A stretch of DNA of 64,000 bases, taken from positions 124,001 to 188,000 of the forward strand of contig NZ_CP072867.1 in the NCBI RefSeq assembly GCF_017948245.1, read 5' to 3'. The DNA comes from Rhizobium sp. NLR16a. GTDB taxonomy: Bacteria; Pseudomonadota; Alphaproteobacteria; Rhizobiales; Rhizobiaceae. The position numbers were made by a program, and so were the translations under genes. Positions 21,877 to 24,143 of this stretch are shown piece after piece. The notes under the pieces are model-generated. The model had not been told where the DNA came from. It made no database searches and saw only the letters and a program-made list of their open reading frames with translations. Numbering within the stretch: the stretch's first letter is position 1; each line of letters starts with the position of its first letter.

Positions 21877-22653
21877 ATGCCAGGCGTAACCCGACTTTCG
21901 GTCCGCAATATCCGCAAGAGCTTCGGCACGCACGAGGTGCTGCGCGGCATTTCCCTCGATGCTGAGGACGGCGACGTGATTTCGCTGCTCGGCGCCTCCG
22001 GCTCCGGCAAATCGACCTTTCTGCGCTGCATCAATCTGCTCGAAACCGCAAGCGACGGTGAGATCTGGGTCGATGGCGAGCACATCGAGATGGTTCACAA
22101 GAACGGCAAGACAAGGCCGGCCAGCCAGAAGCAGGTCGACCATATCCGCTCCGAACTCGGCATGGTGTTCCAGTCCTTCAATCTCTGGTCCCATATGACG
22201 ATCCTGCAGAACGTCATCGAAGGGCCGATCCATGTGTTGAAGCGGCCGCGCGCCGACTGCATCGCCGAGGCCGAAGCGCTGCTCGAAAAGGTCGGCATCG
22301 CAGACAAGCGCCATGCCTATCCCGCCCATCTCTCCGGCGGCCAGCAGCAGCGCGCCGCAATCGCCCGCGCGCTGGCGATGAAGCCGAAGGTCATGCTGTT
22401 CGACGAGCCGACCTCGGCGCTCGATCCGGAACTCGTCGGTGAGGTCCTGCGCGTCATGCGGGCACTTGCCGAGGAAGGCATGACCATGCTCGTCGTCACC
22501 CATGAGATGAGCTTTGCCCGCAACGTCTCGAACCGCGTCGTCTTCATGCGCGAGGGGCTGATCGAAAGCAGCGGCAAGCCGGACGAGATGTTCACAACAG
22601 GCGCGACCCCCGCCTTCCGCCAGTTCATCGGCCATTTCGGGACAGGTCAATGA
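21877..22653 (+). CDS. Amino acid ABC transporter ATP-binding protein (HisP type)
   Basis: A 258-residue ABC ATPase. Walker A is GASGSGKST (about 44-52), the signature is LSGGQQQRAAIARAL (about 155), and Walker B is VMLFDEPTSALDPE, with an H-loop in VVTHEM. The insertion VHKNGKTRPASQKQVDHIRS before the Q-loop is typical of HisP/OccP-type importers. Its last four bases (ATGA) overlap the start of the histidase paralogue, so the two are translationally coupled. Confidence 0.94.
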   Translation: MPGVTRLSVRNIRKSFGTHEVLRGISLDAEDGDVISLLGASGSGKSTFLRCINLLETASDGEIWVDGEHIEMVHKNGKTRPASQKQVDHIRSELGMVFQSFNLWSHMTILQNVIEGPIHVLKRPRADCIAEAEALLEKVGIADKRHAYPAHLSGGQQQRAAIARALAMKPKVMLFDEPTSALDPELVGEVLRVMRALAEEGMTMLVVTHEMSFARNVSNRVVFMREGLIESSGKPDEMFTTGATPAFRQFIGHFGTGQ

Positions 22654-24143
22654 CGATCATCATCGATAGAGTGCTGACCTGGCGCGATGTCGCGCGCGTC
22701 GGGGCAGGGGAAGCTCTTGCGCTGTCGCCGGCCGCCTGGGCGCGCGTCGAGCAGGCAAGCCGCATCGTCGCCAGCATCGTCGAAACCGGCGTACGCGCCT
22801 ATGGCGTCAACACCGGCGTCGGGGCGCTGGCCGATACCGTGGTCGATCGCGCCTCGCAGAGCCTGCTGTCGCGCAGCATCGTGCTCAGCCACGCCTGCGG
22901 TGTCGGGCCGTTGCTTGATGCCCGCGCCGTGCGCGCCATCATTGCCGCTCAGATTGCCAATTTCGCCCATGGCCATTCCGGCGTGCGGCGCGAGATCGTC
23001 GAGCATCTCACCGCCCTGCTGGCGCATGATTGCATTCCCGACGTGCCGTCGAAAGGCTCGGCGGGTTACATCACCCACAATGCCCATGCGGCGCTCGTCC
23101 TGATCGGCGAAGGCAGCGCCATGCTGGGCGGAGAACGCATGAGCGGCCGCCAGGCACTTGCGGCGATCGGCCTCGAACCGCTGGTGCTCGGCGCCAAGGA
23201 GGGGTTGAGCCTCGTCAACGGCACCGCCTGCGCCACCGGCCTGGCCGCCACGGCACTTATGCGCGCCGAACGGCTGCTCGACTGGGCCGATGCCATCGCC
23301 GCGCTGACGCTGGAAGCGGCGGGTTGCCAGATCGCCGCCTTCGACGAGGCGGTGCTGGCGCTGCGCCCATCGGCGGGAATTGAAAAGGTGGGAGCGTCCC
23401 TTCGTGCCCGCCTTCGCGGCAGCGGCCTTGTCGCCGCCGCCTTCGGCCGGCGCACCCAGGATGCGCTCAGCCTCCGTTCGGTGCCGCATGCGCATGGCGC
23501 CGCCCGCGACGTCTTCGACAATTCGGCTCGCATCGTCAACCAGGAGCTTGCTTCAGTGACGGACAATCCGGCCGTCTCGGGCACGCCGGAGCAGCCGATC
23601 GTCTCCTCCGAGGCCCATGCCGTCGCCCCGGCGCTCGGGCAGGCGGCTGACAGTCTCGCCATTGCACTGGCGCAGATCGGCGCGATCAGCGAAAGGCGCA
23701 TGGACCGGCTGGTCAATCCGCTGGTGAGCGGCCTGCCGCCGTTTCTCGCGAGCGACGCCGGCAGCCATTCCGGCTTCATGATCGCGCAATATACCGCCGC
23801 CGCGCTGAGCAATGAAAACCGCCGCCTTGCCGCGCCCGCGGCGATGGACGGCGGCCTGACCTCCGGCCTGCAGGAGGATTTCCTCGCCCATCCCACAGCC
23901 GCCGCCGGCAAGCTGCTCGCGGTCATCGACAATGCCGAATATATCCTGGCGATCGAGCTGATGACCGCCGCCCAGGCGCATGATTTTCTGGCGGCGACAG
24001 CGCCCCGGGCGGCCGGGACGGATCTGGTCTATCAGGCCGCGCGGGAGCATATCTCCCATTATGGCGACGAGCGGCCGCTCAACGGCGATATCGAGGCGGT
24101 GCGCAGCCTGGTCCGCGAGACTGCGCCGCCACCGATGAATTGA
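22650..24143 (+). CDS. Histidine ammonia-lyase paralogue lacking the MIO triad
   Basis: A 497-residue protein of the aromatic amino acid lyase (HAL/PAL) superfamily, full length and in frame. The scaffold is retained: YGVNTGVGALADTV near residue 51, NGTACATG near 190, and VTDNPAVS and QEDFLAHPTAA in the C-terminal half. The cofactor loop reads KGSAGYITHNAHAA (residues 135-148): Tyr140-Ile141-Thr142 stand where the catalytic HutH has Ala142-Ser143-Gly144, so autocatalytic MIO formation by the usual route is impossible. It is translationally coupled to the amino acid ABC ATPase. Possible roles are a ligand-binding or regulatory subunit, or an enzyme with changed chemistry. It is not an ordinary second histidase. 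Confidence 0.88.
   Translation: MTIIIDRVLTWRDVARVGAGEALALSPAAWARVEQASRIVASIVETGVRAYGVNTGVGALADTVVDRASQSLLSRSIVLSHACGVGPLLDARAVRAIIAAQIANFAHGHSGVRREIVEHLTALLAHDCIPDVPSKGSAGYITHNAHAALVLIGEGSAMLGGERMSGRQALAAIGLEPLVLGAKEGLSLVNGTACATGLAATALMRAERLLDWADAIAALTLEAAGCQIAAFDEAVLALRPSAGIEKVGASLRARLRGSGLVAAAFGRRTQDALSLRSVPHAHGAARDVFDNSARIVNQELASVTDNPAVSGTPEQPIVSSEAHAVAPALGQAADSLAIALAQIGAISERRMDRLVNPLVSGLPPFLASDAGSHSGFMIAQYTAAALSNENRRLAAPAAMDGGLTSGLQEDFLAHPTAAAGKLLAVIDNAEYILAIELMTAAQAHDFLAATAPRAAGTDLVYQAAREHISHYGDERPLNGDIEAVRSLVRETAPPPMN

Follow-up and report, generated by a model that had tools for sequence, protein, structure and literature searches.

Behind a set of ABC importer genes in Rhizobium sp. 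NLR16a lies a gene (Table 1) for a lyase of the histidine ammonia-lyase (HAL) fold that, as judged from its sequence, is not a MIO histidase. We infer from conserved residues and gene neighbours, both in the window (the whole stretch of 64,000 nucleotides that was analysed) and at related loci elsewhere, that it is probably an active, MIO-independent enzyme, which would convert imported hercynine to urocanate and trimethylamine. With a little less assurance we also favour a wider reading, in which the clade around this lyase makes up a family of betaine lyases without MIO that is separate from ergothionase, an undescribed "hercynase". Such a family would give soil, plant-associated and other Pseudomonadota a complete route from hercynine to glutamate, by setting one enzyme and exchangeable betaine importers on the histidine pathway, and orphan second copies of hutH, among them Pseudomonas hutH1 and Rhizobium hutHa2, would acquire a role. 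We use "undescribed" with reference to the literature searched, since subscription journals lay largely outside the reach of that search, which returned no account of hercynine degradation, catabolism or lyase.

If this is true, hercynine gains a catabolic pathway, there is a further microbial source of trimethylamine, and a gene reported to be dispensable on histidine in a model soil bacterium finds an explanation. Ergothionase would also be joined by a second natural HAL-fold lyase that lacks MIO, such a lyase being able to work without it because the substrate brings the leaving group. The 241 close sequences that we inspected cannot form MIO, although nearly all of them that carry a name are called histidine ammonia-lyase or HAL/PAL/TAL family ammonia-lyase.

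The lyase, its MIO site and its clade

The open reading frame is uninterrupted, and its sole Pfam domain, PF00221 (469 bits), spans residues 9-466, so that the protein belongs to the aromatic amino acid lyase superfamily by full-length domain and by fold, and an earlier note on this DNA, made from the letters alone, was right to describe an undamaged, full-length HAL scaffold. On the two curated HutH profiles it stays below both cut-offs (454.6 of 539.15 bits for TIGR01225, and 454.8 of 524 bits), as it does below every other NCBIfam cut-off listed for this frame; on the same two profiles the window's HutH reaches 725.5 and 734.7 bits. In the family alignment the lyase reads GSAGY---ITHNAH where HutH reads GSVGASGDLAPLAH: all three residues of ASG are deleted, and no ASG was seen elsewhere within the aligned site. 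Without ASG, no MIO can form. The earlier note had described Tyr-Ile-Thr as replacing ASG at residues 140-142. The lyase does read YIT there, and HutH does have its ASG intact on the minus strand, but the replacement itself is an effect of numbering, since three residues are missing in the alignment.

The same site recurs well beyond this genome. GSxGY without ASG was found in 121/121 sequences (the query and the best 120 of 7643 matches), in 20/20 clade members from the order scan, and in 120/120 listed relatives of a Pseudomonas-type member (the lyase of locus L192), these last reading GSVGYLTHMAH. Decay to a pseudogene is ruled out by the 20 other order-scan genomes in which frame and motif are kept. 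In the order sample 21 of 297 genomes, the window genome included, have a clade member (at least 48% identity). In the class sample there are nine of 385 (655-831 bits, other matches at 434 or less) and in the phylum sample 23 of 398 (at least 622 bits, other matches at 440 or less); the three samples share genomes, and the motif was checked in the 19 class and phylum members with longer stretches. The hosts are Rhizobiaceae, other Alphaproteobacteria and Pseudomonas, with Rhizobium, Agrobacterium, Shinella, Mesorhizobium, Aminobacter, Phyllobacterium and Pseudomonas named among the matches listed. Three clade matches (L058, L059 and L060, from genomes G554, G329 and G457 of family f85) have one TGA inside the matched range, where the alignment perhaps runs beyond the stop.

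All 29 sampled clade rows group together in the tree with support 100/100, and a 100/100 branch places the clade with the MIO enzymes and apart from five ergothionase-like rows without ASG, in a tree that is unrooted and in which the ergothionase-like rows sit on very long branches. Together with the recurring neighbours described below, this makes the MIO-less sequences a conserved clade and not a rare isolated mutant with no conserved operon context, an outcome that the earlier note had said would refute its reading.

An alignment of 119 clade members, near-copies included, was used for the active site. The equivalents of HAL Tyr53, His83, Gln277, Arg283 and Glu414 are invariant (119/119), and Asn190 of the lyase (HAL Asn195) is kept in 118/119; among these we take the Tyr to be the catalytic base and the His to bind imidazole, and the HAL numbers are in part what we take them to be, with Y280, F329 and D145 occurring in PDB titles. 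The position of HAL Tyr280 is Leu in 119/119 (Leu273 in the lyase), and Tyr381 is specific to the clade, the same position being Val in 48/48 MIO HutH rows with a letter there. ASG is deleted in 119/119 and present in 51/51 rows classed as MIO HutH, a class that was itself drawn by ASG, and alongside the loss of MIO there is a further fixed change, from GGNFHAEP in HAL to SSEAHAVAP in the clade. These invariant residues in a conserved clade bear out the earlier suggestions of selection for another role instead of decay and, MIO being absent, of catalysis of a different reaction. The AlphaFold model of the lyase (13 sequences) has a pLDDT of 88, is poor at 398-411, which includes Glu409, and matches HAL of P. 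putida with a TM of 0.92 and ergothionase with a TM of 0.89.

Importers, regulators and hut genes

Table 1. The lyase gene and its neighbours in the window
Feature	Coordinates	Strand	Remarks
HutU, ordinary urocanate hydratase	10880..12553	-	970.7 bits, cut-off 375
HutG, N-formylglutamate deformylase	12578..13387	-	
HutH, canonical histidase	13431..14966	-	ASG intact
HutI, imidazolonepropionase	14963..16282	-	
HutF, formimidoylglutamate deiminase	16255..17694	+	ORF start as listed; true start may be downstream
Second HutC-family repressor	17750..18478	+	298.4 bits, cut-off 220
HutC-family repressor	18512..19267	-	295.9 bits, cut-off 220; divergent from importer-lyase genes
Candidate operator, 14-bp perfect palindrome ATATGGTACCATAT	19339..19352	.	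between divergent HutC gene and importer genes
Family-3 solute-binding protein of polar amino acid (PAAT, HisJ/OccT-like) ABC importer	19461..20303	+	
ABC permease, HisQ-like	20409..21134	+	
ABC permease, ArtM/HisM-like	21145..21849	+	
ABC ATPase, HisP-like	21877..22653	+	stop overlaps lyase ATG by 4 bp
MIO-less HAL-fold lyase (proposed hercynine trimethylamine-lyase)	22650..24143	+	497 aa
GSAGYITH codons, residues 136-143	23055..23078	+	three-residue deletion site removing MIO tripeptide, by alignment

The start of the lyase gene overlaps the stop of the ATPase gene, as had been noted earlier, in the letters ATGA at 22650-22653. The HutC-like repressor that had been placed at the head of this operon instead lies on the minus strand and is divergent from the transporter and lyase genes. 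The two HutC-family genes stand side by side on opposite strands (17750-19267), and two further palindromes are possible operators, ATGTATATACAT at 16255-16266 between hutI and hutF and TTCCATATACAA at 18487-18498 between the HutC genes. A gene at 25717-28278 on the minus strand encodes an FAD oxidoreductase fused to a GcvT domain (dimethylglycine dehydrogenase/sarcosine-type). It was considered as a partner in trimethylamine use and dropped, as its scores are far under the curated cut-offs and it adjoins the lyase in only two close relatives among the 20 order-scan loci.

Context was counted over 115 distinct loci, namely 20 from the order scan, 19 from the class and phylum samples, 73 named and 3 plasmid loci. 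Excluded were L127, L146, L147 and L158, where the gene caller missed the lyase, L205, which has no clade member, and three named loci that were duplicates. Taken as the best matches among those listed, the 80 named loci over-represent Rhizobiaceae, and some probably repeat genomes of the scans (G023, G187, G281). The transporter upstream of the lyase is of the PAAT type in 16 of the 20 order loci (ProXWV in 1, none in 3), in 6 of the 19 class and phylum loci (ProXWV in 8, BCCT in 2, none in 3), in 51 of the 73 named loci (OpuC-like in 11, none in 11) and in one of the 3 plasmid loci (none in 2), with no recognised transporter upstream in 19/115 distinct loci. Four unrelated transporter types can therefore precede the lyase gene, and three of them (ProXWV, OpuC-like and BCCT) are of the betaine kind. 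In the ProXWV set the binding protein is of the OpuAC kind and the ATPase scores above the betaine/proline/choline cut-off; the BCCT transporter matches betaine carriers below the cut-off; and in Agrobacterium the OpuC-like transporter has a binding protein that scores far below the OsmF cut-off and whose closest PDB proteins are Lmo1422 (97.7 bits) and EgtUC (91.3).

Genes of histidine degradation are the other recurring neighbours, and over the genomes as a whole the lyase gene mostly keeps company with hut genes, a HutC gene or both. At least one hut enzyme gene lies within the stretch in 13/20 order, 15/19 class and phylum, 32/73 named and 0/3 plasmid loci, and is absent from the stretch examined in 55/115 distinct loci; for a HutC-like gene the counts are 17/20, 11/19, 65/73 and 1/3. 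The gene that follows the lyase is hutI, hutU, hutG or hutH in 12/19 class and phylum and 3/20 order loci. A gene of the monomeric sarcosine/N-methyltryptophan oxidase type is directly downstream in 33/73 named loci (one such neighbour was scored, at 414.5 of 257 bits). By the PAAT and HutC counts the clade occurs together with HisJQMP-type importers, a point that the earlier note had proposed to check, and with HutC-like repressors. Yet, because the importer is swapped for three unrelated types while the hut genes stay, no single transporter is the conserved partner.

Hercynine as the proposed substrate, and the alternatives

We propose that the lyase would take trimethylamine off hercynine (N-alpha-trimethyl-L-histidine, histidine betaine) and leave urocanate. 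Since a quaternary nitrogen leaves readily as it is, the MIO electrophile would be unneeded and its three residues could be deleted. Tyr51 would abstract the beta proton, and the carboxylate would bind to Arg276 and the imidazole to His81 and Asn190, while Tyr140 and Tyr381 may line the space of the trimethylammonium group. The urocanate would act as inducer via HutC and would be broken down by HutU, HutI, HutF and HutG. We arrive at hercynine because the pocket suits imidazole, MIO would not be needed, importers for betaines occur at these loci in three unrelated forms, and enzymes that act on urocanate are encoded downstream. Against it stands the importer, which is of the amino acid type in the window and in most of the loci counted. 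The closest PDB proteins of the window's solute-binding protein are octopine- and nopaline-binding proteins, and it retains the Asp matching that of HisJ/LAO, which we take to hold the alpha-amino group; on these grounds it may carry an amino acid, and neither its PDB relatives nor the residue comparison supports a betaine pocket in it.

Hercynine is the precursor of ergothioneine and is made by fungi and actinobacteria. It has been found in nine of ten cyanobacterial strains, according to the available text of PMC3826126. A search of the window genome for EgtD, a hercynine synthase, gave no match. As to the second product, both ends of the contig that holds the window (C3; L219 and L220) carry genes for a trimethylamine monooxygenase (857.6 of 675 bits), a TMAO demethylase (1274.5 of 1100), a DmmA-family protein (116.9 of 60) and a type III glutamine synthetase (694.5 of 469.6). 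Trimethylamine monooxygenase occurs in 8/21 lyase genomes of the order and in 50/276 others (Fisher p 0.041, kinship ignored), a weak co-occurrence in which four of the eight lyase genomes are of one genus. Use of the amine would be optional, since only 8/21 lyase genomes have the monooxygenase.

An alternative, which we consider unlikely, is that the lyase acts on ergothioneine or a derivative (the sulfonate or the S-methyl compound), with other enzymes handling the sulfur-bearing urocanate. Ergothionase too has the HAL fold without the MIO tripeptide, Leu at the position of HAL Tyr280, and the catalytic Tyr, Arg and Glu, all as in the lyase clade; the binding protein of the Agrobacterium-type importer is near EgtUC, the ergothioneine-binding protein; and, to go by a title, a pathway for ergothioneine sulfonate has reportedly been published for A. 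radiobacter, which would favour ergothioneine. The ergothionase of T. denticola (PDB 6s7j/6s7q) is a relative of the lyase at 186.5 bits, and ergothionase lacks MIO and releases trimethylamine, as stated in the available text of PMC13405746. However, the two differ at the MIO site, where ergothionase is shorter by one alignment position and the clade by three, and in the pocket, where the Lys and Ser of the T. denticola and window-genome ergothionases are replaced by Tyr381 (119/119) and Asn190 (118/119) in the clade. The Lys presumably has a role in ergothionase. The clades are also parted by the 100/100 branch described above, with the caution that the tree is unrooted and its ergothionase-like branches are long.

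The neighbours differ as well: beside the window lyase stands an ordinary HutU, under the thiourocanate hydratase cut-off (686 of 930 bits), whereas a different contig carries the Ert-type genes, together with a lyase of its own. There, at 9990-17495 of L053 (contig C1, 3762000-3781900), a second MIO-free lyase (L003), closest to 6s7j, belongs to an ergothioneine utilisation cluster with ErtD (781 of 600 bits), ErtE (632 of 520), thiohydantoin desulfurase (599 of 440) and thiourocanate hydratase (1060 of 930). Given this separate cluster and the ordinary HutU of the window, ergothioneine would be handled elsewhere and the window pathway would take plain urocanate. Tried as an ergothionase, the lyase fails on the Lys, the tree grouping and the neighbour genes, and agrees in the lack of MIO; its proposed chemistry is that of ergothionase, but residues, tree and neighbours set it apart.

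Equally improbable, in our estimate, is elimination from some other substrate, be it a histidine that is N-methylated only in part, an aromatic betaine of another kind or an imidazole compound that parts with a different group, and the specificity might vary within the clade. Several loci do lie outside hut clusters (L036, L049, L055, L174 and others), and the neighbour of the N-methyl amino acid oxidase type would suit such a substrate, but the His that we take to bind imidazole in histidases is kept in 119/119 members, and the hut and HutC-like genes point to urocanate as the product. Mono- and dimethylamine are poorer leaving groups, which counts against partly methylated substrates. At L055 (a plasmid of Rhizobium sp. 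ACO-34A, 8049-15745) a clade member sits amid genes for a solute-binding protein, a desaturase-like protein and annotated aldehyde dehydrogenases, in a stretch without hut genes, perhaps for another substrate.

The earlier note proposed a scaffold without catalysis, which would bind histidine or urocanate and serve the importer by regulation or channelling. This reading, or that of a subunit modulating HutH, seems to us very unlikely. It would suit the overlap with the ATPase gene, the frequent PAAT neighbourhood and the second, HutH-type match listed in each of the 21 order-scan genomes with the lyase, but other genomes have unrelated importers in its place, and the Tyr taken as catalytic base, the Arg, the Glu and the His for imidazole are retained without exception (119/119), though binding alone would not need them all.

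Histidases, HutH1 and other MIO-free relatives

The proposed hercynine lyase resembles HutH (TIGR01225) in fold, in identity (about 39% to HutH of the window genome), in the imidazole His and Asn and in hut context, and differs from it in the missing ASG, in Leu for Tyr280, in Tyr381 for Val and in a score under the curated cut-off. We take S. meliloti to have a HutXWV/hutH2 arrangement. At the Pseudomonas-type locus L192 the order is hutU, an NCS1-type permease, ProXWV, lyase, hutH, a permease, hutI and hutG, which equals the hut order of strain SBW25 (hutU-hutTu-hutXWV-hutH1-hutH) as described in the available text of PMC8871633; the window locus is ordered differently, and its importer is PAAT-type where that of the HutH1 locus is ProXWV-type. 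By this gene order Pseudomonas HutH1 is probably a clade member, and hutH1 of SBW25 is reported in the same text to be dispensable for growth on histidine (PMC8871633). Predicted HutC regulons often include several HutH paralogues in Pseudomonadaceae, Rhizobiales and other groups (PMC5343134), and the available text of that paper gives these paralogues no other reaction.

Other MIO-free HAL-like proteins were met on the way. One, at L199 (5510-7045, minus strand; 31% identity), reads GSLGAADL and has Lys at the position of Tyr381; it adjoins ProV/ProW-like genes, near a clade member within the same hut region. Two more without ASG, in L213 (S. meliloti pSymA, GSVGQADM) and L214 (an Alisedimentitalea plasmid, GSIGAADL), sit on the same side of the tree as ergothionase.
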